Shown piece after piece: positions 13,364-47,200 of a stretch of 64,000 nucleotides of DNA (the stretch's first letter is position 1; each line of letters begins with the position of its first letter). Origin of the DNA: Tetragonia tetragonoides (taxonomy: Eukaryota; Streptophyta; Magnoliopsida; Caryophyllales; Aizoaceae); NCBI GenBank assembly GCA_038025085.1, contig CM076144.1, forward strand, positions 37,730,501 to 37,794,500. Direction: 5' to 3'. The translations under genes were made by a program, and so were the position numbers. Under the pieces are notes generated by a model. The model was not told the DNA's origin. It did no database searches and saw nothing but the letters and a program-made list of their open reading frames with translations.

Positions 13364-13404
<41 letters not shown>

Positions 13405-15510: not shown

Positions 15511-15755
15511 TTTTTTTTTATGTTTTTTGTTTGTTTTCTTTTCTCTTTTTTTTTTTCTACTTTGTTATGAGTTTTGATTTAGGTGATTATAAATTAAAAG
15601 TGCCATTTATTCCATTAAAGTGATCCTTATGTACACTTAAAATGACCCCTTGAATAAAAAATGACCCACATTTAAATTATGGTGACCCATATTTTTTGTT
15701 AAACAAAAAAAAAAAAAAAAAAAATTAAAACTGAGTCAAAATTTCAGCGTCTACA
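15511..15755 (-). repeat. Element 1 5' LTR remnant (~245 bp)
   Basis: Matches the last ~245 bp of the left LTR and ends with the same GTCTACA. The match stops abruptly in a T-rich run at 15511, where RNase H coding sequence begins. A deletion therefore removed about 2.9 kb of LTR together with PBS, gag, protease and most of RT. The T-rich tracts at the breakpoint may have favoured the event. Confidence 0.88.
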
Positions 15756-18700: not shown

Positions 18701-19889
18701 CGGGAGTGGTCGGGAGTTGTCTATTGAAAGGAGTCGTTACATGTGATAATATAGTGATTAGCATATGATCATGAAATTAGATTTCCGAAGTCATAGAACA
18801 CTTTAAATATGATTCATAATCTCATATTGATTGCCAATTTATAATGATCATGTTTGTAATTGGTGTCCGGGAGTGGTCGCAACGTGTCTATTGAAAGGAG
18901 TCGTTACATGTGATAATAGAGTGATTAGCATATGATCATGATATTGGATTTCCGAACTCATAGCATACTTTCAATATGATTCATAATCTCATATTGATTG
19001 CCAATTTATAATGATCATGTGTGTAATTGGTGTCCGAGAGTGGTCGGGATGTGTCTATTGAAAGGAGTCGTTACATGAGGTAGTAGAGTGATTAGCATAT
19101 GATCATGAAATGGGATTTTCGAACTCATAGAATACTTTAAATATGAATCATAATCTCAAATTGATTGCGAAGTTATAATGATGATGTGTGTAATTGGCGT
19201 CCGAGAGTGGTCTGGACCTGTCTATTGAATGGAGTCGTTACATGTGATAATAGAGTGATTAGCATATGATCATGAAAATGGATTTCCGAAGTCGCTCATA
19301 GAATACTCTAGATATGATTCATAATCTCATAGTGATTGCCAATTTATAATGATCATATGTGTAATTGGAGTACGGGAGTGGTCGGGTCGTGTCTATCGAA
19401 TAAAGCCGTTACATGTGATAATAGAGTGATTAGCATATGATCATGATATTGGATTTCCGAACTCGCTCATAGAATACTTTAAATATGATTCATAATCTCA
19501 TATTGATTTCCAATTTATAATGATGATGTGTGTAATTGGAGTCGGGGAGTGGTCGGGACCTGTCTATTAAAGGAGTCTTTACATGTGATAATAGAGTGAT
19601 TAGCATATGATCATGAAATTGGATTTCTGAACTCATAAAATACTTTAAATATGATTCATAATCTCATATTGATTGCCAATTTATAATGATCATGTGTGTA
19701 ATTGGAGCACGGGAGTGGTCGGGACGTGTCTAATGAATAAAGTCGTTACATGTGATAATAGAGTGATTAGCATATGATCATGATATTGGATTTCCGAACT
19801 CATAGAAGACTTTAAATATGATTCATAATCTCATATTGATTACCAATTTATAATGATGATGTGTGTAATTGGAGTCCGGGAGTGGTCAG
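15756..19889. repeat. Satellite array block B, ~167-bp monomers
   Basis: About 25 monomers of the same satellite and orientation as block A, starting with the right target duplication of element 1 (15756-15760). Some monomers at the right end (near 19290 and 19463) carry a 4-bp GCTC insertion after GAACTC. The block ends inside GAGTGGTC, where element 2 has inserted. Confidence 0.96.
19885..19889. repeat. Left target-site duplication of element 2
   Basis: GTCAG precedes the terminal TG of the 5' LTR. The right copy at 34596-34600 reads GTCGG. Removing the element restores the normal GAGTGGTCGGGACC of the satellite. Confidence 0.8.
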
Positions 19890-20208
19890 TGTAAACGCCA
19901 AAAAAGCGTCTTCAGATTTCTCCGCAAAAGCCCGATGATGAAAGGAGTAATTTTTAAGCTTGAACTGCTTTTTTGCTTTAATAGTTAAGATAAGGTCTTA
20001 GGTTTTTCCCTCCAAACACCCCTTCATTATATTCCATTCAGAAGCCCCGTTCAAGAGCTTTCCAACGACACGTCTCAGCCTCATTCCGACTCTCGATCGC
20101 CAAGTTGCGATTTAAGGGTAAAATCGACTTTTACCGTTCAAGGGTAAAACGGTCTTTTCATGTGTTTCAAAATATTTAAAATCCCCCGGAAAATTAAAAT
20201 GGGCTGGA

Positions 20209-20320
20209 TGACGTTGTTATGACGTCATCTGCTGGCTGCTGACAACCGTCAGCGGCCCTGGGGAAAGTCTCAGGGCCACTAGCGGCGCTGACCAATTTCC
20301 CAGGGCCGCTAGCGGCGCTG
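20209..20320 (+). promoter_or_regulatory. Element 2 5' LTR U3 enhancer-like module
   Basis: Contains one perfect TGACGTCA (20220-20227) and a half-site TGACGTTG (20209-20216), the bZIP (TGA/CRE) type. Three GC blocks follow: AGCGGCCCTGG, then GGGCCACTAGCGGCGCTG, then GGGCCGCTAGCGGCGCTG, the latter two separated by ACCAATTTCCCA. The module ends 84 bp before the TATA box. Binding is inferred from the motifs. Confidence 0.55.
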
Positions 20321-20403
20321 ATTTCCCTTCGGGCCCGGCTCATTTTCCATGTCCGTCTCATTTTCAGCTCAAATTTGATCGTACAACCCTACTTTTCCAC
20401 GCC

Positions 20404-20411
20404 TATATAAA
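20404..20411 (+). promoter_or_regulatory. TATA box of element 2 5' LTR
   Basis: TATATAAA, conserved exactly in the 3' LTR (33812-33819) and followed by the pyrimidine-rich CAACCCTTCACCCTCAG, a plausible start region about 30 bp downstream. Confidence 0.75.
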
Positions 20412-21191
20412 CAACCCTTCACCCTCAGTTCAAAACACACAGTCTACAGTTTACAACCTCTATTCTCAGGAGTATTAACACTGACCTTCCCCATCTTTCT
20501 TCCAAACTTGAGATCTATTTTTTATTATTCTTGTCAAATATAGCCTACAGTTCAGGTACAAATTCCTGAGGGCTTAAATTAAATTATTTGCTTAATTGTT
20601 TATTTTCTAAGTAGTCATAATGTAGATATCATGCTAAGTCACGTTTTTATTGCTTCCTAAATATTGTCTGTATAATCGTTATGCTGCCCAACTTGTCAAT
20701 CGAATGCATGTCTAAAAAAGTGTTAAAAATAAATATTGTGATGCTTGTGATAAACCAATTACTAGTCTAAGGCTCTAGGTTGTTAATCCGGTTTTGCATG
20801 AAAATTATGTCTTTAAATTATTAAGCAAACTTGAGTTAGTAGAGGCCGTCATAAACGGGCGAGTTGGGTGCCTAATACCTTCCCACCTCGTAACTTCGCC
20901 CCCGAACTCTTTATTCTTGGGTACTTATATGTTTTATATAAGCGGGAGTCTTTCTAAAAACACGATTAGTTCTCTTATCGCGCTATTGGGTTGTCCATTC
21001 GGTTTGTCCCTTCGATAAAACGCCGATAGCAGATTTGTGACCTTTTTCATGGCTTTTATTCAATTCAAGTCTTTACAAAAGCTTTTCTAACTCGAGGGTC
21101 CCTTGAACTTATCTAAGCCTCCAACTGACAAATTTTCTATAAGGACGCACTCCGTGAAAACAAGGATTGGAAAAGTCCCGGGTCCTTACAG

Positions 21192-21210
21192 TGGCGACTC
21201 TGCTGGGGAC
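21192..21210 (+). other. Primer binding site of element 2
   Basis: TGGCGACTCTGCTGGGGAC, one base after the LTR terminus. The leading TGG pairs with the CCA end of a tRNA. The sequence resembles the tRNA-Arg primer site used by Ogre/Tat elements; the exact tRNA was not checked. Confidence 0.8.
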
Positions 21211-22198
21211 TTATTTAAGAGGGTGAGACTCGAAAGTCAAGTTTGCTTAATTTTTTAATAATATGTTCCATATTTTTGCATCATTTGCATGTGCCTTGGC
21301 ACAACCTTTTGAGCCTTATCGACCCTCGAGGAAGTTTGTGTCGCAACTCGTAGACAACCCGTATATCTAAAGGAATATACAGTTGTCCTATCGTGCAAAT
21401 CGACGCTTCCTCACCCATGACTCATCAATCCTTGTTGATGAAAAGAATTACAATCGATGTGTCGACCATCCGCCGAACGGAAATTGTAATTTGTTGTGGT
21501 ATCCTCACAGGAGCCAAAAGCCTCTAACCCACATTCGTGCATCCGCTTGCTTGTTGTGCATGTGTCGTTGTAATGCCCGTCTGATCACATGTTTGCCTGT
21601 AAACTAAGTTGTTATTGTGCTTGCATGAATGCATGATTATCGTGATTATGTGCCAACATGTACTTACGGGCCAGGAGTCGTTTTTTTTAGCTAGTTTCTT
21701 ATGCCCCAAAGATGGTGCGAGAATTCAAATTCAATGAACACTCATCATTTTCCCAATGATATATTCTAAAAGTCATGGACAGTTTCTAGGATCTTTTTAG
21801 TAAAAAAAGAGTCAGTCTTTCAATTTTCCCTCTCCCTTTTTCTTATTTCTATATTTTCTTTTTTCTTTTGATGTAATTCAGATTCGGTCAAAAAAAAAAA
21901 AATCAACGAAGTAGAAATAAAAAAAATGGCAAAAACAAAAAATGCCGAAAAATCAAAAAAATAAATAAAAAAAGGGGATCGAAATTTCATTTTATTTTAT
22001 TTTATCCCATTTTTCATTTTCTTTGAGTCTAAAAAAAAAAAAAAGTTAGGATAGTCATCTTTTTTTATTTTTCTTATTTTCGTTCACTGGCTTTGTTTTC
22101 CTTGAATATTAGGGAAATATTTGGGCATTTAGACTTAAGGACTTTCTGTTCCCTTTTAGGACAATGTGCTTTCTATGTGTGGGTCAATTTTTCATTAG
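21211..22198 (+). other. Untranslated leader of element 2 with inverted repeats
   Basis: About 1 kb with no convincing gene before gag. It holds a 9-bp perfect inverted repeat (AATTACAAT at 21446-21454, ATTGTAATT at 21483-21491) whose loop contains the palindrome GTCGAC (21461-21466), with a smaller ATCAA/TTGAT hairpin just upstream. From about 21780 to 22080 it is A/T homopolymer-rich. The 74-codon frame at 21383-21607 has no recognisable domain. Confidence 0.5.
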
Positions 22199-23884
22199 AT
22201 GAGAGTTTCGTGGTTTTTGTTACTAAGTGCTCCGTGCTTCCTATTCAGGATAGGGGGTCCAAAGAAGAAAGGAAATCTTGAGAAAAGTTGGGCTCGGCCT
22301 TCGGCGAGGCTGGTTCGTTTGCAACCGTCTACACCACCAGGTCCTCGTTTACCTACACCACAAACAGATTCACCATCAATAAATTCACTGTCACTACATA
22401 CCTTCTTCTCCACACCAATCACCCCTCCCAACTTCACAAGGCCTAAGACCATGGATGAAAGATTTGATGACCTCATGAGCGAGTTAGAAATAGTTCGACT
22501 CAAAGTTGGAGATATAGAAAGAAAAAGAGAAGAAGAAGCAAGGGTCCCTTCCAATTCCGATTCTGAGGAAGAAGGGTCAGATGCCATGCTGGCTAAGATC
22601 ACTTCTGTGCTCAAGAGTAGCGGCTTGATCTCCAACTATAGTGCCAACGTAGGAAAGTTTGACACTAAGATGAAGGGTAAGCTTCCGGCCACATTCTCTA
22701 TGCCTGAAGTACCCACCTTCACGGGAGTTGACAACCCGCAGGATCACCTGAAATCCTTCACTACTGCTATGGCTCTAAGGGGAATCAACAAGAAACTCTA
22801 TGCCCATCTGTTTCCCCAGACCCTTGATACACATGCTCGACGATGGTTTTACTCCCTAGACCTAGAAAGCTACCCAACTTCGTCTGGTTTTACCACGGTC
22901 TTCCTGGCTCGATACAAGGACAACGCTACTCTCCCCATCACTTTGAGGGAGCTTGAAATTACCACCCAAGACAGGAATGAGGGATTCATTAAATTCCTCC
23001 GTCGATGGAAGTCCAAGATAGCTGAAATGGTGGAAAAACCTTCCGTAACTGAGCAGATCAGGCACTTCATTAAGAACCTGCAACCGGCTTATAAGAGTCA
23101 CCTTCAGTATCAGGCTATTGACTCATATCAGCGTCTATATGACGTTGGCATCCTCATTGAAGATGATATCAACAAAAATAAGGACCAGGCCACCCCTAAG
23201 CCCTTCACTTATGGGAAAGACAAAAGGGCAACTGCCGGAACCTCTTCTGGTGCTCAGGTCAATGAGGTCGCTGCTGTGAATACCTTTGCCGAAAGAAAGC
23301 CACAAAGAGAATTCACCCCTCTTGGAATGACTCTGTCACATGCTCTTGAAAGAATGATCAAAAATAATTTGCTGCAGCCCATTGGACCTACCCCGGAACC
23401 ATCCGTTAAGAGCCGCAACTGGAAAGAAGGCGAATACTGCAAATACCATCAAGGAAAGGGGCACGACACCGACAACTGTTGGGCTCTCAAACATGCTATC
23501 CAGGATAGAATTGAGAACGGTACCATACCCTTACCAAAACCTGGACAAGGACCCAACAACTCGAATAACCCTTTGGGTGCCGTTCTGCACATAAGTGTTG
23601 AGGATGCCTTAGGATTTGAAATTGCTGGAATATGGGACAGCGATGAAGAAGATGTATGGGAGATCCAAACCAGATCGCCTGTAGGAGTGGCCCACTTGAC
23701 ACGCTCCGGTCGTCATTATAGGCCACCAAACATCTATAATGACAGAATCCAACCTCCAGCTGAAGAAGAAGTGGAAGAAGTCCCCGCAAAAGATAAAGAG
23801 TCTCCCATCACAGGGCAACTCAAGAGAATCAAAGCCGATATTTCTATTTGGCAACTCTTAGCCTCATCCTACGAACATCGCTAG
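22199..23884 (+). pseudogene. gag: Element 2 gag
   Basis: 561 codons encoding the capsid/nucleocapsid protein that packages element RNA. The open frame starts at ATG 22199; the ATG at 22451 (codon 85, context ACCATGG) before DERFDDLMSEL is a better translation start, as the first 84 codons are Pro/Ser-rich. A Glu/Arg-rich coiled segment is followed by the plant gag core (PEVPTFTGVDNPQDHLKSF, ARRWFYSLDLESYPTS). The zinc knuckle is C-x2-H-x4-H-x4-C: Cys414, His417, His422 and Cys427. It ends at a TAG (23882-23884) beyond which the same frame continues into protease. Related Tat proteins usually have Gln at this EHR-stop position, so a CAG-to-TAG mutation is likely. Confidence 0.9.
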
Positions 23885-24631
23885 GGCATTTTGGAACCCT
23901 TATCAAAAGTTTCGGTATCACCGGATATGACACCTGATGAACTGGTCAATTTCTTGGTAGGAGATAAAACTCAGCCATCCATCACCTTCTCTGACAATGA
24001 GTTACCTCCAGAAGGGTTTTCACACAATAATGCTTTATACTTGACTGTATTCGCCATGGGCAAGTATGTGCCCATGACCCTAGTGGACAATGGCTCGGCC
24101 GTAAATGTATGCCCATTGAGAACCACAGCAAAACTGGGCATCGATATCAACAATTTGGCTCACTCAGTACAAGGCTTGCGCGCTTATGACAATTCCAGTC
24201 GAAAGGTTTTAGGCACCATAACCATGAATGTCACCTCTGGGGCTATACAGAAAACGGTCCAGTTTTATGTGATGGATATTCCAGCTACTTTCAACTTGTT
24301 GTTAGGGCGACCTTGGCTCCATGGTTTAAATGTTGTAGCCTCTACCCTGCACCAGAAGGTCAAGATGATGTTGGAAGGAGAAATTGTGGAAATTGAAGCT
24401 AACCCCATCAAGGCAACTATTGACAAGACTCCTGTCTTGAAGATAGAACACGATAGTGAAGACATTGAGCTGTGGGGATTCTCCCCTGAAGAGGTAGCCC
24501 TCATAGAAGAAGACACTAAATCTCACAACTCAGACAGTACTAGGGAATTCGAGATCTATCCTTCTGAAGAAATAGGAGAACCGGATGAGTTTGAGGAAGT
24601 AAAGGAAACTATCGAGGGAATGTCCATCTAG
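23885..24631 (+). pseudogene. pro: Element 2 aspartic protease domain
   Basis: The same frame as gag continues directly after the TAG, for about 248 codons. The protease matures the element's polyprotein. The active-site motif is LVDNGSAVNV with the catalytic Asp codon at 24086-24088; DNGS in place of DTGA/DSGS is common in Tat-group elements. FNLLLGRPWLHGL is the flap-distal ILG-type motif of retropepsins. The C-terminal part is acidic (Glu/Asp-rich). The frame stops at TAG 24629-24631 and then continues open, again consistent with loss of a Gln codon. No Met codon opens this segment, so it was made as a fusion with gag. Confidence 0.88.
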
Positions 24632-25231
24632 GTGGCATACCACCACCATGCAATTCAGCGGATGAAAGAAAAAATTGCCTCGTTGGAACAACCCACAGAA
24701 TGCAATATCATTCTGGCCAAAGGAGAATCTTGCTTCCAACAAGATGAAATGTTCAGCAAGATGGTCAAGTATGGATATGCCCATCCAAGGAGGCCTACCC
24801 TTCGCATACTTCCCAGGGACGGAAACCCCTATCTTCGATGCAAGTACTGTGAAGCTAATGGGCATCACACCAACCAATGCAAGCGTCTGAAGAGGGTAAT
24901 CACCACTTTCATTGATCATGGAACCATGTGGTTGCCTAGCTCTTGGGCTATAAAAGGATGGCACCGCTTTGACCAAAAGCAGTATACGCAGCTGAACTTC
25001 CCCATCGGCAACGTCATGAACACCCTCATATGAAGAGGAGACCTTAAATCAACAACTCCCGCTGACAATCTCCAGGAGGTGAATAGAGATCAAGACTCTT
25101 ACTGTCGCTATCACCAGATTTTTGTCCACTACACGGATGACTGCACTCGCCTGAAAGATGACATACAGAAGATCATAGATAGTGGGGAAGTACCACCGCC
25201 TCTGAAGGAAGAAGAGGAACCCTGGAACTGA
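24632..25231 (+). pseudogene. Zinc-knuckle region downstream of protease, element 2
   Basis: Same frame as gag and protease, interrupted by TGA at 25031-25033 and closed by TGA at 25229-25231. It encodes two further nucleic-acid-binding motifs. The first is a canonical C-x2-C-x4-H-x4-C knuckle (24839-24880, CKYCEANGHHTNQC). The second (25103-25144, CRYHQIFVHYTDDC) has the C-x2-H-x4-H-x4-C pattern of the gag knuckle followed by a similar RLKDDIQKIIDSGEV helix. I do not know these from the standard gag-pro-pol order. They may be a captured or duplicated nucleocapsid piece. The protein is uncharacterised; gag to here forms one frame of about 1010 codons with three internal stops. Confidence 0.72.
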
Positions 25232-25662
25232 TTGGTTACTTGCAGGAGCTAGAGGAGTCGAGTCTGAGTCTCCAAGGTTTTGTCGAGTTAGGGTCCTAGC
25301 TAAATCTTTAGGTTGAGTCTTGAATAAGGGGTGTCCCCCTTTTATTTTCCTTCTAAGTCTAGTTTCTTTTTTACGGGTATTAAAGACCCCCCTTCTCTAA
25401 AGTCATGTGTGCCTATCTATTTTTGCAAATCAATAAAAATTCTCTTGCTCATTTCTTTCTTTGTTTAACTATTGACAAATCCAATGAATACAAAGTTGCA
25501 CAAATCATTAACTAATTAATTTAAGCAATGTAAGTAAACTTCGCAAAAGCAAGAATACAGATTCTCACTTTTACAGGAATGTGAGTAGCTGAACTCCCTC
25601 AACGATGCCACTCCAAAAAAAAAGGAAGCGAACCAGCCTTTTGCAACAACCTCGACACAGAA
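25232..25662 (+). other. Spacer replacing RT and RNase H in element 2
   Basis: About 430 bp where RT, RNase H and the second RNase H should lie; none of their motifs is visible in any frame. The segment is T-rich with acceptor-like TTGCAG (25250) and TTTTACAG (25571-25578). Just before integrase a short open stretch in the gag-protease frame (about 25589-25666) ends in a TGA that overlaps the integrase ATG as ATGA. A run of nine A (25615-25623) may be the site of a frame change. It could be remnant Ogre-type intron sequence or simply a deletion scar. Confidence 0.6.
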
Positions 25663-26937
25663 ATGACTTTGGCTCCGATCGAAGAAGATCCTTGGTACCA
25701 AGACGTCTTCAACTACATCACCAAAGGAGTATACCCTCAAAATGCACCACTAAGAGCTCAACGGGCCATCCGTCTCTTAGAGGCGCAGTACATAGAATAC
25801 AAAGGGGTTCTGTATAAGAAATGTCACAACGGGGTTAACCTCAGATGTGTGAACGCCGAAGAAGCTGCAGAGATTATGGACGAGGTACATAATAGGGTGT
25901 GCGGACCACACATGAACGGGCGAATGCTCTCCAAGAAGGTTCTACGACTAGGATACTACTGGACTACTATGGAAAAGGATTGTTATGACTACGTTAAGAA
26001 GTGTAAGAAGTGTCAGATATATGCCAACCTGCAGCATATGCCACCCTCGATGCTCTATAACTTCACCTCTCCTTGGCCATTTTCTGCATGGGGAATAGAC
26101 ATCATTGGAAAGATCACCCCGAAGGGCTCGGGAGGACATGAATACATCCTAGTAGCCATAGATTATTTTACCAAGTGGGTTGAAGCCCAGTCCTATGCCA
26201 TCCTTACCTCCAAACAAGTGTCCAAATTCATAAGGAACAACATCCTTTGCCGATATGGTGTTCCACATGAAATCATAAGTGACCATGGATCCCACTTCAA
26301 AGCCGAAATAGCCACCCTTCTCAAAAGCTACAAAATCCAGCACCACAAATCATCCCCTTACCGTCCCCAAACCAATGGCGCAGTAGAGGCCGCCAACAAA
26401 AACCTCAAAACTATAATTGAAAAGATGATAGAAAACTACAAAGATTGGCCCATAAAACTCCCATTTGCACGTTGGGGGTATAGGACATCCATAAGATCCT
26501 CTACGGGAGCAACACCTTACTCCCTAGTCTATGGAATGGAAGCAGTTCTACCCATAGAAGTCCAACTACCCTCCATGCGCATAGCCTTAGAAGGAGACAT
26601 TCCTGAAACCCAATGGTTGCAAGCCCGCTATGAAGAGCTCATGTTCACAGATGAAAGACGCCTACGGACCCTAGACCATTCCCACATGTATCAACAACGC
26701 ATGGCAAGAGCGTTCAACAAAAAGGTTCGTCCTCGAAAATTAAAGGAAGGGGACTTAGTTTGGAAAGAATTACGAGCCCCAGTAACCGACCCCAGAGACA
26801 AATTTCGACCAAACTGGTCCGGACCATTCATCATCAAAGACATCCTATCAGGAGGCGCCGTCAGACTCATGGATATTGATGGCATCGAGTTCAGCCAGCT
26901 CACCAATATGGATCAACTAAAGAAGTGTTACGTCTAA
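25663..26937 (+). CDS. int: Element 2 integrase
   Basis: 424 codons, uninterrupted; inserts the cDNA into the genome in the nucleus. The N-terminal zinc site is His76, His83, Cys114 and Cys117 (CKKCQ). The catalytic core is Asp146 (WGIDIIG), Asp207 (ISDHGSHF) and Glu242 (GAVEAANK), giving the D,D-35-E spacing. The usual Asn after the second Asp is His here. The C-terminal GDLVWKELRAP, NWSGPFIIKDIL and MDQLKKCYV blocks match the end of element 1 pol. The ATG at 25663 may not be the natural start, because integrase is normally cleaved from a polyprotein. It is the best preserved retroelement gene in the window. Confidence 0.93.
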   Translation: MTLAPIEEDPWYQDVFNYITKGVYPQNAPLRAQRAIRLLEAQYIEYKGVLYKKCHNGVNLRCVNAEEAAEIMDEVHNRVCGPHMNGRMLSKKVLRLGYYWTTMEKDCYDYVKKCKKCQIYANLQHMPPSMLYNFTSPWPFSAWGIDIIGKITPKGSGGHEYILVAIDYFTKWVEAQSYAILTSKQVSKFIRNNILCRYGVPHEIISDHGSHFKAEIATLLKSYKIQHHKSSPYRPQTNGAVEAANKNLKTIIEKMIENYKDWPIKLPFARWGYRTSIRSSTGATPYSLVYGMEAVLPIEVQLPSMRIALEGDIPETQWLQARYEELMFTDERRLRTLDHSHMYQQRMARAFNKKVRPRKLKEGDLVWKELRAPVTDPRDKFRPNWSGPFIIKDILSGGAVRLMDIDGIEFSQLTNMDQLKKCYV

Positions 26938-27013
26938 AAAAAAATAATAATAAAATTTCGCAAACTTAAAAAAAGAAAGAAAGAAAGAAAAAAAAGACGT
27001 ACAGTATTTGAAC

Positions 27014-27070
27014 GAACTACGCAGGCCTGATTCCACACTGGATACGTAGGTAACCCTTTAAAAAGGGCCC
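27014..27070 (+). other. Conserved post-integrase box, element 2
   Basis: About 75 bp after the integrase stop: GAACTACGCAGGCCTGATTC, then GATACGTAGGTAACC, then a CCCTTT/AAAGGG inverted repeat and CCGACCAAAAT. CTACG (27017-27021) and CGTAG (27045-27049) can pair. The same ordered blocks are present in element 1 at 13261-13335. Confidence 0.65.
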
Positions 27071-27265
27071 GACCAAAATCAATCCAAAAATTCCTTTCAA
27101 CTCATTCAAAAAAAGAGACAATCTTTATTCAAACTGAACGAATAAGCTTACATTGCAAGAATCAAAACTTCCTAAGGAAATAATGCAACTATGAGGGTTT
27201 AAGCTAAACAAATTCCTATTATTATTTTCCTTTGAAAACTAGACTTGGTTTCCTAGAAAACTACT

Positions 27266-28600
27266 TTAATCCTTCTTCCCTTTAGAAGGCATCGTTGAAG
27301 AGTTCTTCTTTGAAGGACCCTGGCTTGAGGACGACCTATGATCACTTCCTTGAGCTGGGGGCTTGCCTCTCTTCAGTACGTGATAGTCTTCCATTTGAGA
27401 CAGTTCCTTTCTTTTCTTGCCTCCTGTTTGTGAGTCATATCTAGGCTTTAGTTGGTCCCACTCCTCATAACGAAGGGCTCGTCTCACTTCTCCATCACTG
27501 CAAGAAAGCCAGTTTAGGTAGATCGCAGAGACCTGAGTTGGGGCAATCACCCGAGGTACAGTCCAGCGATGCCGGCTACGCCAATACTTTCCCCACTCCG
27601 CAGCAAATTCAGTGGTTAAGGCTATGACAATTGGTCTCGTAGTCTCCTGACAGGGGATCACCTGCTTCAAATCGTATTGCCTCATGACCCTAGAGGGAAA
27701 GAAGAAAGTGGTCCTGTACAAACCTAGTACGGTAGTATGAAGGATCAAGTCATCACAAGCCACTAAAGAAGTCAAGCTCCACCAGGGCACATGCCAACGG
27801 ATGATAGGTTGGAAAAAGGCATCCCATTCAGCAAGGGACTTTTCAGAATATAGCCTTTTCCTATCCAGAAAGCTAGCAGCATTATAGGTTTTCTTTGACC
27901 AGGTCCGAGGAACACAAATAATCAGATTATCTGGTGACTCTATCAACCTCAGATGCTCACATAACCAGATCTGAAGCAGCAGGGGGCTGCCCGAGAAAGA
28001 TTGGTTGGGAGATGTTTTCAACCTGTCAAGCCCAATAATGGTTTCCCCTACGACCAGATGTAAGGGAGAATGTCCTTCAACCATTTGATTAACCACTCGC
28101 AGCAACGAGGCTCTACCCAAGTTGGAAGATTCTGCATTAACAAACAACAGGCGGTTTAACAGTACAAAAGCCTGTCGACAGCAACGCCTGAATATGGCAT
28201 CTTTTTCAGAAGAATTAGCGAAATTTTTGCAAAGTTGAACCAAGTCCACATCGACAGCAAGCACCATCTTTTTGGCTTCTGCAGATGACAAACCCAGGGA
28301 TTTCCTGTATTGATCCCTAAAACCATCCCTCACATAAGGCACAGCTGGGGGAAGAACATCAGGAATATTAGTGATCGCAGCAAATTCCTCAACCAAAGGG
28401 CATAGTTCGGAATTACCAAAACGGAAAACATGCAGGTCAGGATCCCAATAATTCAAAGCAGATCGAAGAAGGGGCCACAGTATTTTGGTTGGTTTTAAAG
28501 TCAGCAAGGTAGAAATGTGAAACGGGGCTAGTTCAAGCTTATCTTCTACGGTCAAATTTTTGCACTAGGCATCGAACAGATTTTCAAAGGATTTCACCAT
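27266..28600 (-). pseudogene. Antisense DUF7745-domain gene of element 2
   Basis: 444 codons on the minus strand from ATG 28600-28598 to the stop at 27268-27266, with a single in-frame TAG at codon 12 (28567-28565) where CAG would encode Gln. It encodes a plant-specific DUF7745 protein of unknown function. Visible blocks are NYWDPDLHVFRFGNSELCPLV, GSPLLLQIWLCEHLRL, EWDAFFQPIIRWHVPWW and LYRTTFFFPSRVMRQYDLKQV. The Lys/Ser-rich tail (KKRKELSQ, GPSKKNSS, PSKGKKD) could act as a nuclear signal. It is antisense to gag-pol, lies between integrase and the PMD gene, and is homologous to the antisense ORF of element 1. A TATA box lies 78 bp upstream of the ATG. Confidence 0.82.
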
Positions 28601-28677
28601 GGCAGAAAATTGAGAAGTTTGGGAGAGCTAAGGTATACAAAAAAAAAGTGGTACAACATCAAGCATCCCGAAAATCC

Positions 28678-28766
28678 TACTTATAGACAGGAACGCGGGT
28701 TGAAAAAGCCAGAAATCCGCAAAAAAGAACTGTCAACAGCAATGGTCAGTGCCGCTAGTGGCCCAG
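28678..28766 (-). promoter_or_regulatory. Promoter of the antisense DUF7745 gene
   Basis: On the minus strand, TATAAGTA (28685-28678) lies 78 bp before the ATG at 28600. Some 60-80 bp further upstream (about 28766-28744) lies GGGCCACTAGCGGCACTGAC, nearly identical to the GGGCCACTAGCGGCGCTGAC of the element's LTR U3. This is a motif match only, without expression evidence. Confidence 0.55.
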
Positions 28767-29175
28767 ACCCTGGCCCGGTCCGAATTTCCCTTTTGCTCCA
28801 CTTCGCGCTTTTGATCACGACGACCCGATTTCGGCCCAGTTTTAATACCTGCGTGGAATTACAAAGCCCGAGACTCTCTTAGATTTATCTTTTTTCATTT
28901 TGTTTTTCTTTTTTTCTTTTTCATTTTTTTAGGGGGTATAATATGTGTAATTTTTGCTTTCTCCTTTGCATTTTTTTTTACCTTTTTCTTTTTTATTGTT
29001 ATTATTCCCTAAATTATGGCTTTGGCCTACTGCATAACACGTTGCATAATTAGATCAGACGAGCATAATTGAGTCATCATAGCATATCATACATATCAAA
29101 AAAAAAAATGTGTTGCACCAAAAACAGGAGTTCGAAATTCCAAGGCCAATGTTTACAAAAGCGGCCCAACATTGT

Positions 29176-31942
29176 TCAACTGGAATCGTTACTGTCAGCC
29201 TCATTATCAATGGACGGCCCCTGACCATAGTTTCCGGTCGAATAGTGGAGAGAAGGGCTATATATGGGCCTGCTATTCTCAGGCCTCATGTCCCGTCCAT
29301 CATATGCTGGGGCTCGCATAGGGGTACCTGCCGAAAACCCCGAGGCAAAGAAGTTCGCCGTGGCCTGACTGGTGAAATCCATAGCCACATCCTGATAAGA
29401 AGGCCCAGCATATGACATATCCCATCCAGGGGCGTTCGCCCAACCTCCAGCCAAGGGCGTACCAACAGGCAGCCTATCAAGAGAAGGCCGGAAATCAGCA
29501 GGAGAGAACATCTCAGGAACATACGGGACAGAAGCCTCGGGCGCCTCATCAACAGGAGGCCTGGTCACCATCACAGGAGGAGAACGAGCAATAGATGGTC
29601 TGCTCGCCGAGGAAGCCCTCGCAGCAGAAGAGTGGTGTGGTCCTACCGAAGATGAAGACTGAGACATCTGCAGATAATCAAAGTAAAAATGTTAAGTTAA
29701 GCACTTCACTTAGCTAAATAAAAAAAGAGAGAAGAGAGTTTGCTTACATCAACGGTCTTAGACCGAGAACTCTTTCCCTTGCCCATCACTCGACCGTAGC
29801 CTTTCTTCAACAAATGGATGAGCTTGAAGACTTGAGCGATCTGCTCCCGGTTCAGCTACAAAAGAGAGAGAGAGAGCCACATAATCAAGTCAACACTCGA
29901 AAGCAAACACAAGTACAAAAGAGAGAGAGAGAGAGAGAGAGAGAAGAAAGCTTACCCCCGTGCAACCATCAGGCAAGGGCAAGCCCTCCACCGCCTCTCC
30001 ATCAGCAATATGGAGGGGGAACTCCTCCACTATGCGTCCCCCACTCTCCCCAATGTACCTCACCTCATTGGTCGGCAAGGTCACACTTGGAGGCTGACCC
30101 CGAGAAGCTCTGGAATGAGACCTCCTAGGACTCGGAGGAGCTAGACGATCCGCCTACAAGACACAAGGAGTCAGTATATCACGCGTACAGTTAAAAGATG
30201 CAGATAAGTTTCTTACCTCAGAAGTGAGGTCTGGCATCAAGCAGTCCAAGCAATAGGCCAGGTACAGGGCGGTCTGGTCTAAGCCAACGACCTCCGGCAC
30301 GATAAACTCCTGCGCCGCCCTACCATGGATCACGACCCCCAGGTCCCGCACACTCAGACCACGCAGGTAAAACATGGTCAAAGGAGGATCCTCCGGAACC
30401 AGATGAGTACCCAGGGAGGGATAGACCAAATGAGTCAAACGATCCCCTAAGTACCATACAAAGCTGAATGGCCCCTCGAAGACCACTCGTAGAGAAGATA
30501 CCCTAAAAGACTCTAGGGTAATGTGGGTAGGAACCCCAGGAACATCATCAAAAGCGGACCACAACACCTGCAGATTACCAATTCAAAATTCATTCACACA
30601 GAATGAACAAAAGGGAATGCACAAGTCAACAACCACGTACCGTAGACGCAGCATGACTCTCGAAGGTGGCCCGGAAATGCTCCAGAGAGGAAAACGGATG
30701 GGCATCCCTACCAACCCATCGTGAACCTAAAGGGAACATTCTCAAACCAGGACAATGAGGACCAAAAGCTGGAAAATACTCAAAGAACCACAGCTGCCAC
30801 ATAAGCAAACACAAAAAATGATTTCCACAATTGAAGACATAGGCAAAAAAAATAGTAAAAAAAAGAAGCCTACCTCTAGTATCCTCCATGGGCCCATGAT
30901 AGATTTCCTCTCACTCGTCTCCTTAGGCCTACAGGCCCGATGGCACCACTTCACCAAAGAAGCATAAGCAGCAGCACCAAGGTTGTACTCACACACCTTG
31001 GTCAAATCCTCCAAGCATGTTAAGAAACCGACTTGACACACGCTCTTCTTTTGAGCAAAGATCGTCGACCCCAGCAAACAAGCCAGGAAAATACGAGCCC
31101 TCTGCTCCTCGGTAAGCCCCTGCGCAGATACGGCCTCCCACAACCGCGCCAAGGGAACCCGATCCTTATCAAAGTGGATAGATACGGGCCCGTAAAGATC
31201 CAACAAGGTGTCACTCCGTCGCCAATAGCTCGCGTCGTACTGAATACGACGCCCTCTAAAGGATAACCCCATCAGCACAACAAACTGATAAGGGGTAGGA
31301 AACATCTCTCCCACAGGTGTATGGAAAGTGTTTGTAGAATCCCAAAACCTCTCCAGTAACCCCCGGGCAACAATCCTAGAATCCCCCGAGTGACAAGCAA
31401 GTATAACAGTCAAAAAATCAGCGAGACCCGAGTCCAGTACCAAATTCCTGGCCTCCTCCGAAAAGGTCCCCAACATCATAGCCCAGTGGGAAGTAGTCCC
31501 ATGAGCCTGCAGCAGAACCCCGATACCCTAGCCAACCAACAAAATTTTCTCAATACCCCATATAACACAAATACAACTAAAATAAATTCCACACAAATTA
31601 TATACAGCTGACCACCAATCCAGTACAAGTCCCAGTTTGTTCGTGTGCCGAAGCACTAACAGTTCCCAGTTTCAGTTTGAATATACTGAACAGAAAAAAG
31701 AATAGCAGAAAACATACCAGCCTCAAGTCAGACAAATGACTCCGTCTATCCGGCAACAATACACTGCGGTTCCAAACTCCAGGAGGGCGCCAATCCAACC
31801 TCATAAAAGAATCCGGGTACAGTCGAACCCCATCCGCGTGACCGGTCGGAGGCCCTCGGGTAGAAGGTAACCCGGTGCGAAAAAGGCTCCGGTCATATTA
31901 CTCGTCACTCATAGGACGCTTCCCTTTGTGTACGGGAGCCAT
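29176..31942 (-). pseudogene. Antisense seven-exon plant mobile domain (PMD) gene of element 2
   Basis: Minus-strand exons by GT-AG rules: 31942-31718, 31527-30874, 30793-30641, 30567-30217, 30153-29956, 29855-29748 and 29667-29176. All six introns are phase 0 with good donors (GTATGT, GTAGGC, GTACGT, GTAAGA, GTAAGC, GTAAGC), and the exons join to 726 codons ending TGA. PMD-family signatures (MAIN/MAIL and PP7-long-form relatives) are ERFWDSTNTFHTPVGEM and VLMGLSFRGRRI (about residues 134-170), and LWFFEYFPAF at the start of exon 3, where PMD proteins have an LWxxEYF block. Exon 5 encodes a basic Ser/Arg/Pro segment and exon 7 a Ser/Pro/Gly-rich tail. One in-frame TAA (31900-31898, codon 15) breaks it. 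PMD proteins are nuclear in plants; the role inside an element is unknown. Confidence 0.82.
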
Positions 31943-32258
31943 GGGAACACAATGGAACTTTCTCTCTCTACAAGTGGGAAAAAAAAAGTTTCAGATTCGC
32001 AAGAAACAAGCACCCATTCAACAATGCAACCCAAAATTCAGCAACTAGGCGGAAAAATAATCAAGTTCAAGACAAAAACCAAAGCAAACGGACAAGAATC
32101 GACTTACCTCAAGTGGAGTGAAGCACTCAACATTGGAGGAACTTGCTCTCGACAATGGCTCGCTGAGGAAGAAGACCCATAACGCGAAAAGAAGAGAGAG
32201 AAAGCGCCGAAGCGCTTTTTATTTGGCTCAAGCCCTGGGCCTGGGCCGCTAGCGGCCC
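31943..32258 (-). promoter_or_regulatory. 5' flank, promoter and 5'-UTR intron of the PMD gene
   Basis: Minus strand: the perfect 16-bp palindrome GGGCCGCTAGCGGCCC (32258-32243) matches the LTR GC module. About 20 bp on is an AT-rich TATA-like ATAAAAAG (about 32223-32216). A 5'-UTR exon then ends at GAG followed by GTAAGT (donor 32107), and the acceptor TTGTAG (31969-31968) lies 26 bp before the ATG. This gives a 140-bp 5'-UTR intron. The module's presence upstream of both antisense genes suggests a shared promoter origin. Confidence 0.5.
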
Positions 32259-32554
32259 TGCAGACCTGCAGCACGGGCCCCACTGCTGACCCATGACCCC
32301 TTTTTCCAGTCCAGAGTTCGTTTTTACAGTTCATTTTGAGGCAATATCACTACCAAGCGCGCGGGAGCGAAGCCCCTGGCCCACAGATTCAAGTTTGACA
32401 GTTGGCCCATTTTACGGTACCAACTATTTACAGGTAAAACTAACCCGTTTATTTTTGCAGGTCCCAAATACTGAAACCCGGATCTACACTGCGACGACTC
32501 TCACCGCCCTGAGCGCACAAGTTATTTATCGGCACTTGCTAAGCAACACAACAA

Positions 32555-32865
32555 TACAAATTTTGGTCCAGTCACTGATCGCTTAAGAAATTGCAGTTAA
32601 ACTGTCCTTCTGCGAAACTACAAATTTTGGGCCAGTCACTGATCGCTTAAGCTATTGCGGTTAAACTGTCCTTCTGCGGAATTACAAATTTTTGGGGTTA
32701 GTCAATGATCGCTTAAGGTATTGCGATTAAACTATCCTTCTACGAGGTTACTATTTTTTGTGTCGGTCAATGATTGCTTAAACTGTTGCAGTTATACTGT
32801 CCATTATTTTTATATGTTTCAGTTAATGATTGCTTAAACTATTGCATTTAAACTGTTCATATGTC
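32555..32865 (+). repeat. 64-66-bp tandem repeats in element 2 3' UTR
   Basis: Five copies with GATCGCTTAA or GATTGCTTAA at about 32577, 32641, 32707, 32772 and 32828, followed by ATTGCAGTTAAACTGTCC-like sequence. Spacing is 64, 66, 65 and 56 bp. Copies become more divergent to the right. They lie between the PMD gene and the 3' LTR, as the tandem repeats of element 1 do. Confidence 0.85.
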
Positions 32866-33271
32866 CTAACCACTTTACGACCGATTATTTTTAATCGCGC
32901 TGTCTCGTTGACTTTTTCGTTTCTCGTACAGGGACGGAATCTCGATATCCGCCGAGTGGTGTTTCGTCACTGTTTGTCGAAGCACTCTACATTGATCATT
33001 CTCAAAGTATTGCTAACTTTTTTATTCACTTTGAATACAGGTCTCCAGCAGACGTTTAGATCATCTACGGACGGTGTTCTATCCTGCTACTATAACCTTT
33101 GTTTTCTCTTGTGTTCACAGGGATTAAATCTTAGCACCCTACTAGCGTGTTCCAACTCAGGTTTGTCTTCATATGCATACATATTGTACACTCTCACACA
33201 CCATGTGCACATCAGCATCCTGCATGTCGCCTTCGGAGTAATTTGATCTTGGCTTTTACTCAAGCTCGATC
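32866..33271 (+). other. Remaining 3' UTR of element 2
   Basis: About 400 bp without a recognisable gene; the 138-codon frame at 32830-33246 is Leu/Ser/Thr-rich and has no domain I know. Several acceptor-like TTNCAG strings are present (e.g. TCGTACAGG, GTTCACAGG). Nothing else is visible. Confidence 0.4.
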
Positions 33272-33285
33272 AAAGTGGGGGCTTC
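33272..33285 (+). other. Polypurine tract of element 2
   Basis: AAAGTGGGGGCTTC directly before the TG of the 3' LTR. This is the purine-rich primer for plus-strand synthesis; the same AAAGTGGGGG-type tract is common in Tat and Athila elements. It fixes the element's orientation as plus. Confidence 0.88.
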
Positions 33286-33605
33286 TGTAGACGGCAAAAA
33301 AGCGTCTTCAGATTTCTCCGCAAAAGCCCGATGATGAAAGGAGTAATTTTTAAGCTTGAACTGCTATTTTGCTTTAATAGTTAAGATAAGGTCTCAGGTT
33401 TTTCACTCCAAACACTCCTTCATTCCATTCTATTCAGAAGCCCCGTTCAAGAGCTTTCCAAAGACACGTCTCATGCCTCATTCCGACTCTCGGTCGCCAA
33501 GTTGCGATTTAAGGGTAAAACCGTCTTTTACCGTTTAGGGGTAAAACGGTGTTTTCATGTTTTTCAGAATATTTAAAATCTTCCGGAAAATGAAAATGGG
33601 CTGGA

Positions 33606-33731
33606 TGACGTCATTATGACGTCAAATGACGTCATCCAGCTGGCTGCTCACAGCCGTCAGCGGCCCTGGAGAAAGTCCCAGGGCCGCTAGCGGCGCTGAC
33701 CAATTTCCCAGGGCCGCTAGCGGCGCTGACT
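33606..33731 (+). promoter_or_regulatory. U3 module of 3' LTR with three TGACGTCA sites
   Basis: Perfect 8-bp TGACGTCA sites at 33606-33613, 33617-33624 and 33627-33634, 10-11 bp apart start to start, so on about the same helix face. GC blocks with GGGCCGCTAGCGGCGCTGAC (twice) follow. TGACGTCA is the core of plant TGA/CRE-type bZIP sites. The 5' LTR has only one perfect copy. Confidence 0.6.
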
Positions 33732-33811
33732 TCCCTTCGGGCCCGGCTCATTTTTCAAGTCCGTCTCATTTTCAGCTCAAATTTGATCGTACAACCCTAC
33801 TTTTCCACGCC

Positions 33812-33819
33812 TATATAAA
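33812..33819 (+). promoter_or_regulatory. TATA box of element 2 3' LTR
   Basis: TATATAAA in the same context as in the 5' LTR. In this copy it could drive read-out transcription into satellite block C. Confidence 0.7.
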
Positions 33820-34595
33820 CAACCCTTCACCCTCAGTTCAAAACACACAGTCTATAGTTGACAACCTCTATTCTCAGGAGTATTAACACTGAGCTTCCCC
33901 CTCTTTCTTCCAAACTTGAGATCTATTTTTACTATTCTTATCAAATATGGCCTACAGTTCAGGTACAAATTCCTGAGGGCTCAAATTAAATTAATTGTTT
34001 AATTGTTTATTTTCTAAGTAGTCATAATGTAGATATCATGATAGGTCACGTTTTTATTGTTTCCTAAATATTGTCTGTATAATCGTTGTGCTGCCCAACT
34101 TGTCAATCGAATGCATGTCTAAAAAAGGGTTAAAAATAAATGTTGTGATGCTTGTGATAAACCAATTAATAGTCTATGTCTAGGTTGTTAATCCGGTTTT
34201 GCATGGGAATTATGTCTTTAAATTATTAAGCAAACTTGAGTTAGTAGAGGCCGTCATAAACGAGCGAGTTGGGTGCCTAACACCTTCCCACCTCGTACCT
34301 TCGCCCCCGAACCCTTTATTCTTGGGTACTTATATGTTTTATATAAGCGGGAGTCTTTCTAAAAACATGATTAGTTCACTTATCGCGATATTGGGTTGTC
34401 CCTTTGGTTTGTCCCTTCGATAAAACGCCGATAGCAGATTTGTGACCTCTTTCATGGTTTTTATTCAATTCAAATCTTTACAAAAGCTTTTCTAACTCGA
34501 GGGTCCCATGAACTTATTTAAGCCCCCAACTGACAAATTTTCTATAAGGACGCACTCCGTGGAAACAAGGATTAAAAAAATCCCGGGTCCTTACA

Positions 34596-44112: not shown

Positions 44113-44175
44113 GGGTGTTACTATTTACCGCCGTAAAATTACTTATCACCGCCCTTGGAAATTACAATATTGCCC
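44113..44175 (+). repeat. Left terminal inverted repeat of the MULE
   Basis: Starts GGGTGTTACTATTTACCGCC and ends ATATTGCCC. It pairs with the right end at 48816-48877 with about 15 mismatches and one gap. The C/T-rich leader of the transposase gene follows. Confidence 0.88.
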
Positions 44176-44305
44176 CCGCTCACATTTTTACCCTTCTTCC
44201 TCCCTTTCTCCCACTCCCCCTCTCCCTCTCTACCACACCCACCCACTCTCACACCCACCCACATTCACCAACATTCTCTCACCGGCAAGCAAGGAACGAC
44301 CGCAT

Positions 44306-46738
44306 ATGTCTTCCGGCGACCAAGAAGTGTCGTCGACGCCATCCGAGGTTATTTTTTCTTTTGCAGAAATTGGGTCGGGCGTCTGTAATTTTCGCCCGAC
44401 CCATGGTTCAGGCGTCTGAGATATCCGCCTGATCCATGGAACAGGCAGAAATCTCAGACTCCTATTCCATGGACCAGGCGAGAATCTCAGACGCCTGATC
44501 CATGGATCAGGCGAGAATCTCAGACGCCTGATCTATGGTCCGGACGGAAATTTCAGACGCCTGTTCCATGGAGCAGGCGGGGAATTGCAGACGCCTAGTC
44601 TATGGAATGAGCGTTTGATTTTGCCGTCTGTTCTTTGGTGTAAGCGAAAATAACGGACGCCTCCCCTTTGTTAAGGCGGAATTCGCAAAAGTCTAAGTGC
44701 GTTTGATTAACATTAATGTCGTTGATTTCATCAGGTTCCTTTGGAGCGGTTCGGTGGTGATGGTGTTGATTACAGTACGCATTTCGTGTTTGATGTGATG
44801 TTTGAAAGTGATACAGACGCAATTAATTGGGCAAAACAAATTGCCCTTCATATCGGGTTTGAGTTGATAATTTCCTCACACAAGAACAACGGAAGCGTGA
44901 AATTGTTAAGATGCAATCGAGGTGAACGCTACAGAGGGGAATTAAGAGACTTAGACGCTGCTGTTCGGAAGAACACGAAAACGAAGGCCTGCAAATGTAC
45001 GTTCCAGTTAAGGGCTGAACGTGTGTATGGGTGTAGTAGTTGGGTGATTGTCACATTGCCTGGGATCAGGGGTACGCACAACCATGGCTTTCTCGTGTTC
45101 CCTGAGGGATATCGTCAGTTGAGTGGTCTTAGTCCTGGGTCAAAAAAGATTGTTCGTGACATGACTTCGGCTCAATCAAAGCCATGTGCTATCTTGGCCT
45201 CCATTCAGGAAAAATTTCCTGAGGACATGGCAACTAGACGGCATGTTTACAACTACAGAGATCGTATCAGGAAACTTGATTTTGAAGATAGAGATGTCAT
45301 TGGTCAGTTTCATCATTTAGCTGTGGATAATAACTACGTACATTGGACAAGAGCCGACCCAGATACTAATGAGGTAACTCACGTGTTCATGGCACACCCA
45401 ACATCAATTCAGTTACTTCGGTCTTTTCCGTGGTTGATTGGCTTGGATTCCACGTACAAAACAAACAAGTACAAGATGCCGTTCCTTGAGATAGTGGGGA
45501 TGACTCCAACCAACAAGAACTTCCTCATCGCTTATGCAATTATGAAGGATGAGACTGAGGCAAGCTATGCGTGGGTGTTAGACAAGTTGAGAATGATCAT
45601 TGGATATGATGTACAGCCTACAGCTATTATGACCGATCGCGAGCTAGGGTTGATGACACCAATTAGAGAGATATTTCCCGAGAGTGCCCATTTGCTCTGT
45701 ACATGGCACATTAACAAAGTTGTTGAAGACAAGGTGTACAGACTTTGTGGAAAAGATAAGGCCATCGCGCAGAGGTTCAAGAATGGAAAATGGAAAGCTA
45801 TCATGGAAGCTTCAACAGAAGCTGATTACGATAGAGCAGTGCGTACGATGAAGGATAATTGGAGTTCTTTTCCTCACGTGATATCCTACGTAGAGGGGAC
45901 CTGGCTGAGATATAAAGAGATGTTTGTAGCTGCTTGGACGAACAAGGTGTTACATTTTGGCAACACTACGACGTGCAGAGTGGAGAGTGCACATGCCACG
46001 CTAAAACAGTGGTTGAACACCTCAACTGCAGCTCTCGACAATGTTTGGACCAAGGTAAACAAGGCAATCGATTCACAACTAACTCAGATCAGGTACACAC
46101 TTGAAGAGTGCAGAAGACGCAAAGCTGTGTTGTACTCGGGTTTCCCATTCAACTACCTGAGCGGGTATGTTTCTCATTACTGCTTAGGAATATTGTTGGG
46201 TGAGCTAAAGAGGATGAGAGACTTGAGTGACCAGGTGTATGATCGTTGCGGTTGTGTATTGAGATCCACTCATCAGATCCCGTGTGCGTGTGAGTTGAAA
46301 ACGGCCATAGACACGGCAATGCCAGTTAGTTTGGAAAGTGTCCACATTTTTTGGCGAACACTCGTCATTAGTGACCCAGTGGAGATACCTGCGATGGACG
46401 GGACTGAGCATCCATCTGAGGATCATAGGTATTTTCGCTCTCTCGTTGACGAGGTTAACTCTAGCGACCCGGCAGTTGTTCGCAGTATATCTATCCTAAT
46501 ACATGACCAGCTTCATCCTGATGAAGTAAGCTACGTTGAGCCTCCAGCGAACACGACAGTCAGAGGTCGACGGAGAGGGAGTTCCTCTACCAAACGTGAT
46601 CCTAGTTCATGGGAGTACAGCCAGAGCCGCCGTGGTCGAGCTAGGTCATCCAGTTCAAGCCGCGGGAGTGGTCGGAGCTCCTCCTCATCGAATAACGTCA
46701 TGCGGAGTACTAGTATGAATTCATTTCGTACGATGTAA
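44306..46738 (+). CDS. MULE transposase (Jittery/FAR1-like), two exons
   Basis: Catalyses excision and insertion of the element. Exon 1 (44306-44347) encodes 14 residues, MSSGDQEVSSTPSE, and ends GAG before GTTATT. The intron (44348-44734) ends TTCATCAG, and exon 2 (44735-46738) continues in phase 0; total 681 aa. The ORF without exon 1 has no ATG until codon 20 (44798). Numbering from Leu at 44741: a FAR1/WRKY-GCM-type zinc domain at about 25-115 (CKCTFQLRA, GTHNH); the MULE catalytic core with Asp236 (GLDSTYKT), Asp299 (MTDRELG) and Glu415 (CRVESAH), with CTWHIN between; a SWIM-like finger CGCVLRSTHQIPCACEL, in which Cys replaces the usual final His; and a Ser/Arg-rich tail. No stops or frameshifts. 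A further small exon at 46802-46986 is possible. Confidence 0.9.
44370..44695 (+). repeat. CCATGG-centred dyad array in the transposase intron
   Basis: Fills most of the first intron. Units of about 30-45 bp alternate AATCTCAGACGCCTG with its near-complement CAGGCGAGAATCTCAGA, with a palindrome centre CCATGG between them (five perfect centres, others as CTATGG). The best unit (44492-44513) is a perfect 22-bp palindrome with half-site CGCCTGATCCA. An 11-bp-loop hairpin with arms GGGTCGGGCG/CGCCCGACCC lies at 44372-44402. A related array is at 48213-48431. Confidence 0.85.
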
Positions 46739-47200
46739 TTAGTGTTCTTAAGTAGTTACTCATGTGCACTGTCAATGACTTTTTCATTCTTTGTCTTGCA
46801 GATGGATGCGGAATAGATGTCACTGAATTTCATCATGTTGACAAAATTCCGGGAATCATCCTACCATTCCCTGTTCCTCCGATATTGTCATTATGGTTTA
46901 GTTCCCGTTCTGATAGTGTCGTTGGTTGGGAGCAACTTTATGAGAGGCGGAGAGCACATTGGGATCGTTTAGCGGGTTTGATGTAATTTTTGAACCGTGT
47001 TTATTAATGGACCGATTATTAATGTAATTTTTGTTTTTCATATGCAGCGATTATTAATAGTGTCATTTGTAGTGTCTAAAATAATAATAAATTCAAATGA
47101 CAATATCATCACCAATATTGCATAAAAAATAACATAATGAATAATAATAATATCAACTATCATACAAACATAATGTATAAAACATAAACAATGTAATAAA
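46739..47200. other. Convergent intergenic region of the MULE, with a possible transposase exon 3
   Basis: TTGTCTTGCAG at 46791-46801 is a strong acceptor. A 60-codon open stretch follows (46802-46986, with DKIPGIILPFPVPPI and WEQLYERRRAHWDRLAGLM) and could be a terminal exon if a donor such as GTACGA near 46728 is used. Its function is unknown. The remainder to 47200 is AT-rich with ATAAT repeats and likely holds both polyadenylation regions. Confidence 0.4.

Follow-up and report, generated by a model that had tools for sequence, protein, structure and literature searches.

An antisense multi-exon PMD gene retains its introns in a Tat/Ogre-type LTR retrotransposon family of Tetragonia tetragonoides

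Retroelements are expected to lose introns, yet the high-copy family described here keeps a multi-exon gene with constraint on its splice sites. How does such a gene persist in an LTR retrotransposon, and where do its introns come from? The copy that raises the question lies in the window, by which we mean the whole 64,000-nucleotide stretch of T. tetragonoides DNA that was analyzed. Arrays of a 167-bp satellite, possibly centromeric, make up roughly half of it (32.6 kb) and are interrupted by non-satellite DNA at 6815-15755, 19888-34595, 44113-48877, and from 61004 to the end of the window. The gene is carried by element B, which has the following parts.

19890-34595, plus strand: element B, a Tat-type Ty3/gypsy LTR retrotransposon inserted in the 167-bp satellite
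19890-21190, plus strand: 5' LTR
22199-24631, plus strand: gag and protease-like ORFs (Pfam matches below the cut-off, Retrotrans_gag E=0.0078 and Asp_protease_2 E=0.032)
25585-26937, plus strand: integrase ORF (rve E=1.8e-11, Integrase_H2C2 E=6.3e-9)
27266-28600, minus strand: PMD-1, an intronless antisense gene of ~444 codons, interrupted at codon 12 by a stop in the window copy
29176-31942, minus strand: PMD-2 coding region, seven exons and six phase-0 introns, TAA at codon 15
32555-32860, no strand assigned: tandem repeats with a unit of ~64 bp between PMD-2 and the 3' LTR (self-BLAST)
33286-34595, plus strand: 3' LTR

Element B displays the defining features of an LTR retrotransposon, i.e. 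two LTRs (93.4% identity over 1313 bp by self-BLAST, K2P 0.059), TG..CA ends (termini TGTA..TACA), and a 5-bp target-site duplication in which four of the five bases are alike (flanks GTCAG and GTCGG). A candidate primer-binding site, TGGCGACTCTGCTGGGGA, follows the 5' LTR and may resemble that of Ogre, which is complementary to tRNA-Arg. Reading of the frames between the gag/protease part and the integrase revealed no reverse transcriptase (RT) or RNase H. The first-pass annotation had rightly placed an antisense PMD gene in an LTR element, and the gene does run opposite to gag and integrase, but it overlooked the satellite surroundings, the missing RT and RNase H, and PMD-1, a second antisense PMD-like gene. 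Both PMD-related genes sit between the integrase and the 3' LTR.

The structure of PMD-2 in the window copy is as follows, all on the minus strand.

31942-31718, 31527-30874, 30793-30641, 30567-30217, 30153-29956, 29855-29748, and 29667-29176, minus strand: coding exons
31968-32107, minus strand: 5'-UTR intron of 140 bp, GT..AG
32212-32223, minus strand: TATA-like motif upstream of the 5' UTR (motif match only)

The seven minus-strand exons and six phase-0 GT-AG introns that had been claimed were all found, as was the 5'-UTR intron (32107-31968, GT..AG). Each exon is a multiple of three, and the coding introns measure 190, 80, 73, 63, 100, and 80 bp, all in phase 0 with GT..AG ends. Splicing in silico yields 726 codons and a stop, with an in-frame TAA at codon 15. 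This stop had gone unreported, and the 726-codon frame is not open in the window copy. It was found in none of the 16 other copies checked for it. When the protein is read through, with X at the stop, residues 130-352 match the Pfam PMD profile (PF10536) with 79.4 bits and E=3.8e-22, well above the curated cut-off of 34.9 bits, which confirms the PMD assignment by a profile search; the exon-2 ORF alone reaches 57.7 bits, also above the cut-off. A sequence search for PDB relatives of exon 2 returned none (best E 0.52), and with a threshold of E=0.1 Transposase_28 (PF04195) was absent from PMD-2 and from the ten window ORFs scanned. The TATA-like motif is possibly part of a promoter belonging to PMD-2 itself.

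Further copies were sought in the window's own 753-Mb assembly, the one genome searched. A DNA search with PMD-2 scored 40 places out of 2634 candidates, and when the exon-2 protein served as query, 150 out of 6458 were scored; these counts are lower bounds. Twenty-eight of the 40 places (the window's own included) cover the whole 3,025-bp query with spans of 2,986-3,038 bp. These spans exceed what would be expected were even the smallest intron (63 bp) missing. All 150 scored protein matches display at least 83% identity over at least 204 of the 218 exon-2 residues, and the copies compared are 83-96% alike at the DNA level. We fetched 32 copies and left out L069, which has an internal duplication; the remaining 31 and the window were aligned in 32 rows, including partial rows for L058 (deletion), L068 (3' end), and L070 (unrelated 5' end).

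Clean loss of a coding intron was seen in none of the 31 other aligned copies, and the claim that this antisense multi-exon PMD gene keeps its introns thus holds beyond the window. The single shortened intron is intron 4 of L058, where the deletion also removes the end of exon 4. The 5'-UTR intron is found in 30 of the 31, L070 being unrelated over that stretch. Across the 32 rows, each coding intron has an intact GT in 30-32 and an intact AG in 28-32, and the 5'-UTR intron has GT in 31 and AG in 28. At the same time, every one of the 17 copies inspected for lesions (the window and 16 others) is damaged by one or more stops, frameshifts, or losses of a splice site. L033 has a frameshift in exon 2.

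These lesions are what would be expected if PMD-2 were a chance series of antisense ORFs, or the dead remains of a host gene that ride along without serving the element. The substitutions say otherwise. In the main count, states present in at least three of the 32 rows were scored as shared and those present in one row as private. Shared codon differences have a nonsynonymous to synonymous (N:S) ratio of 139:276, as against 706:277 for private ones (Fisher p=1.5e-40). An earlier count on 17 rows, with shared defined as at least two rows, gave 92:116 versus 406:192 (p=3e-9). These two consensus-free counts pool transitions and transversions. In a majority-based count the trend to constraint was seen in transitions (p=2.5e-6), with no excess constraint in transversions (27:7 versus 197:59, p=0.83), few of which are shared. 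Stops behave in the same manner, shared ones being rare (2 pairs) and private ones common (39). In a six-frame control the coding frame had the lowest shared N/S, 0.50; one antisense frame was also low (0.69), since its third positions coincide with those of the coding frame.

Divergence between two PMD-2 subfamilies (7 and 8 rows picked of the 32) leads to the same result, with dN 0.084, dS 0.384, and dN/dS 0.22, and with per-exon dN/dS of 0.11-0.32 across all seven exons. The purifying selection on exons that had been predicted is therefore found, rather than neutral dN/dS in all copies. Within subfamilies, dN/dS is 0.24 in the second and 0.61 in the window's own, the latter because private decay after insertion dominates there. 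Intron divergence between the subfamilies is 0.21. The forecast of freely evolving introns is thus borne out in so far as introns diverge more than nonsynonymous sites (0.08), but they diverge less than synonymous sites (0.38) and are not simply free. Splice sites are constrained as well. Shared variation affects one of 28 splice-dinucleotide positions versus 239 of 617 intron-interior positions (p=3.5e-5), whereas private variants fall freely on splice sites (19 on 28 positions versus 214 on 489). Per site, shared variation is 0.31 and 0.24 at codon positions 1 and 2, 0.60 at third positions, 0.04 at splice dinucleotides, and 0.45 in intron interiors. For shared indels the counts are 5 over 2218 exon columns versus 53 over 838 intron columns; the five in exons occur in 2-3 rows each, and none is a multiple of three.

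We read this as selection on PMD-2 during the spread of lineages, with every copy decaying near-neutrally after its insertion. The aligned copies demonstrate conservation of introns, splice sites, frame, and protein among lineages that were still moving, while single copies decay near-neutrally. The contrast between shared and private changes, the constraint on splice sites and on all seven exons, and the like behavior of PMD-1 (see below) rule out chance ORFs or a passenger fragment, a reading that we find hardly credible. A different possibility is that selection acts on the antisense RNA, or on a dsRNA formed with sense RNA, rather than on a protein. Convergent transcription would give dsRNA, as raised for antisense ORFs by Vicient and Casacuberta 2020 (PMC7264820, consulted in part), and the introns do diverge less than synonymous sites. 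Selection on RNA only is nevertheless disfavored by the codon-position pattern, shared variation being lowest at codon positions 1 and 2 and at splice dinucleotides, and it is highly improbable. PMD-2 is thus very probably a real accessory gene of a Tat/Ogre-type LTR family, built for splicing, selected, and with its introns retained, although broken in the window copy. Judging from its conservation, PMD-2 would be spliced.

PMD-1 scores 33.5 bits against the Pfam PMD profile, slightly below the cut-off of 34.9, and is hence only "PMD-like"; it also matches DUF7745 (E=4.4e-4). It is at the expected place in all 14 copies fetched. Its codon changes have an N:S of 22:80 when shared versus 195:108 when private (p=4e-14), which is the same pattern as in PMD-2, i.e. 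constraint and then decay.

The absence of RT and RNase H extends to other copies. Six of nine pol pieces examined (window, L051, L052, L053, L085, and L086) are without both and share the same junction, L087 has both, and L050 (with a nested insert) and L054 are uninformative. In L087, whose element copy also has both antisense genes (as L066 and L083), the domain order is RVT_1, RT_RNaseH, RVT_3 (a second RNase H), and rve. A second RNase H (aRH) between RNase H and integrase marks Ogre and Retand elements according to the available parts of Neumann 2019 (PMC6317226), and this order places the family in the Tat clade; the marker is found in the relative L087, while the window copy itself is without RT and RNase H. 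In the PMD-2 tree, L066, from the RT-bearing element, is nested among RT-less copies. The idea that selection on PMD-2 outlasted a single loss of RT was dropped for this reason, and the placement possibly reflects recombination or repeated RT loss. Separately, the sense strand of the gag/protease part of L053, a copy on C5, encodes a G-patch domain (Pfam E=6.9e-6). One was also recognized by eye in L054, on C8, and was not seen in those frames in the window copy. The 5' parts of L053 and L054 look mosaic.

Where the introns come from was addressed by comparison with PMD genes of the host. A PMD profile search of the genome gave 129 matches (117 of 8472 candidates scored). Seven host-type PMD loci were looked at, two of which, L024 and L025, were aligned with PMD-2. 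In L024, phase-0 introns follow VWEGQ, LLQ, and LKPAD. In L025 they follow WCGQ and RDDQ; this second gene is without the middle intron and has an extra phase-2 intron. Two PMD-2 introns have exact counterparts.

30794-30873, minus strand: coding intron 2, position and phase as in host L024, not in L025
30568-30640, minus strand: coding intron 3, position and phase as in host L024 and L025

Introns 2 and 3 were identical in column and phase to host introns in six of six alignments, and random placement produced two exact matches in 4 of 200,000 trials. Intron 1 lies within two columns of a host position in five of the six alignments and far off in one. For introns 4-6, in the C-terminal part, no counterpart was seen in L024 or L025. 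As the matching positions and phases imply inheritance, introns 2 and 3 survived the RNA stage of the element. The alignments establish that these two introns are homologous to host PMD introns and that PMD-2 descends from an intron-bearing PMD gene. Elsewhere in the genome there are two clusters of PMD genes (L001-L021), on C9 at ~42.07-42.32 Mb and on C15 at ~4.42-4.61 Mb. Nineteen of the 21 align in a single frame to 344 or more of the 347 profile positions, and hence have no introns in their PMD domain.

The introns might simply be recent, a host PMD gene having been captured shortly before the last burst, with little time for loss. The copies are 83-96% alike, and only one genome was searched, both of which leave room for this scenario. 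However, PMD-2 and L024 are identical at just 96 of 377 aligned residues, fewer than the 164 of 438 between L024 and L025, which points to an old split. The closest relative of PMD-2 among the 33 loci compared (30 of the 129 PMD matches and three more stretches) is only 28% identical, and the introns are found in both subfamilies, which are 0.38 apart in dS. In addition, the available parts of Ikeda 2017 (PMC5418596) describe PMD-A1 and PMD-A2 as Gypsy-only clades across angiosperms, distinct from host PMD-B/C. A recent capture is improbable.

The old introns bear on the direction of PMD transfer. In the parts available, Ikeda 2017 (PMC5418596) treats it as fully open which way this went, from Gypsy elements to the PMD silencing genes of hosts or from hosts to elements. 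The shared introns favor an ancestor with introns, and capture from the host would account for that more simply than domestication. Domestication of an antisense gene that already bore introns is an alternative, less simple route to the same pattern. On the capture scenario, the element would have acquired a PMD gene in the form of genomic DNA and in antisense. Its splice signals would be unreadable in the sense genomic RNA, since an antisense GT..AG is no splice signal there, and the introns would be copied intact in each round of reverse transcription. The protein would then come from an antisense RNA that has a separate promoter and is spliced in the nucleus, and so only from integrated copies. 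The argument from antisense retention put forward in the first-pass annotation gains strength from introns 2 and 3 being common to host PMD genes, but orientation is not sufficient. PMD-1 is antisense and yet intronless, so that orientation allows introns without forcing them, and the argument leaves the absence of introns in PMD-1 unexplained. The PMD-2 family offers a natural test of antisense protection, in which the elements' own sense genes can serve as the control.

Two other inserts lie wholly within the satellite of the window.

6815-15755: element A, a Ty3/gypsy-like insert with unresolved ends, RNase H and integrase at 13777-15195 on the minus strand
44113-48877: element C, a MULE with an open 670-codon transposase ORF
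47499-47212, minus strand: PMD remnant in the MULE
46756-46974: OTU-like fragments in the MULE (OTU being our reading by eye of an ORF in L031)
47535-48178: tandem repeats in the MULE

Element A bears a PMD-1-like gene on the plus strand (~11063-12547), antisense to pol, which scores 19.6 bits against PMD, under the cut-off, and is 32-36% identical to PMD-1. A search of element A (6815-15755) for PMD-2 gave no match, the PMD-1-like gene being the only one found. The MULE is of the same family as the PMD-carrying MULEs of this genome, with 84% identity to L031. All three inserts wholly within the satellite (A, B, and C) hence bear a PMD-related gene or remnant.

What the protein does is a separate matter, as the constraint on PMD-2 implies that it did something for the element without giving the nature of the role. 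In the host, silencing of transposable elements involves the PMD proteins MAIN and MAIL1, with PP7L, according to the available parts of PMC5418596 and PMC7156037. By analogy, the PMD-2 protein might act in the nucleus on the expression or silencing of the element, perhaps in competition with MAIN/MAIL1; this is the most conjectural step of the scenario. Silencing interference or mimicry is compatible with the data and at most a fair guess. A rival on function only is that PMD-2 serves the element's own cycle, e.g. import into the nucleus, the choice of where to insert (in satellite or heterochromatin, for instance), or control of its transcription. Maize Grande gene23, which is antisense, in the same place as PMD-2, nuclear, and with its own promoter (PMC7264820, in part), supports such a role, as do the three satellite inserts with their PMD-related genes or remnants, but three cases from a single window do not suffice to demonstrate an insertion preference. 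A role in the element's own cycle is a serious contender, if short of probable. The fullest reading joins capture and function: an intron-bearing host PMD gene would have been captured antisense as DNA, its host-type introns maintained by selection despite repeated reverse transcription and serving as a one-way lock (protein from integrated nuclear copies only, never from genomic RNA), with the protein an element-encoded modulator, or decoy, of host PMD silencing. We put this forward tentatively, as possible but rather unlikely in its entirety. If true, it would answer Ikeda's question in favor of PMD transfer from host to element.

Known systems share several of these traits. Steinbauerova and colleagues reportedly described PMD extra ORFs in Ogre (Tat) retrotransposons in 2011. 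In the parts available, Neumann 2019 reports PMD in 57% of Ogre elements and classes extra ORFs in reverse orientation (PMC6317226). Ogre thus likewise has PMD coding in a Tat-type Ty3/gypsy element, and an extra ORF with PMD is what element B carries. PMD in Ogre and antisense ORFs in Tat elements are already known, to judge from what is available of PMC6317226, PMC7264820, and PMC11963269. What appears to be new is a retrotransposon gene that is antisense, divided into several exons by host-type introns, and under selection; we found no description of one in the literature on introns in antisense or captured retrotransposon genes, covered mostly outside subscription journals.

The survey in PMC6317226, as far as available, used getorf to extract extra ORFs of at least 250 codons, whereas there are two adjacent PMD-related genes here, one with seven coding exons. 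This suggests that surveys based on single long ORFs can miss or shorten multi-exon accessory genes of retroelements. In the available text of PMC6317226, both mentions of "intron" concern an Ogre intron on the sense strand, located between protease and RT, which is removed from only part of the transcripts. That intron is likewise in a Tat element, whereas those of PMD-2 are antisense and unreadable in genomic RNA. PMD-2 resembles PMD-A1 and PMD-A2 in being a PMD gene of a Gypsy element; the main text of PMC5418596, in the parts available, contains neither "intron" nor "antisense". A beet LTR element is reported to have "unexpected introns" in its own ORFs (PMC2669250).

An antisense ORF with Transposase_28 (PF04195) is found in 97% of Retand clusters (Vicient 2025, PMC11963269, in part). 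In the available parts of PMC11963269 and PMC7264820, the antisense ORFs described for Retand, Grande, and RIRE2 specify Transposase_28, SMC-like, and further domains; they are single ORFs without PMD or introns, the word "intron" occurring 0 times in PMC7264820. As noted, no Transposase_28 match turned up in PMD-2 or the ten scanned ORFs of the window. In HTLV-1, HBZ is a spliced antisense regulatory gene with one splice into an LTR exon, encoding a different protein. PMD-2 would be similar to it as an antisense, nuclear, and spliced regulatory gene in a retroelement, and differs in being multi-exon and encoding a PMD protein. HBZ is described as antisense and nuclear in the available part of PMC11963269. 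Finally, group I introns in the rDNA of fungi and protists are reported to contain antisense homing endonuclease genes with spliceosomal introns (PMC9548176); these too are antisense, intron-holding genes in a mobile element, but they are not host-type genes in a retrotransposon.
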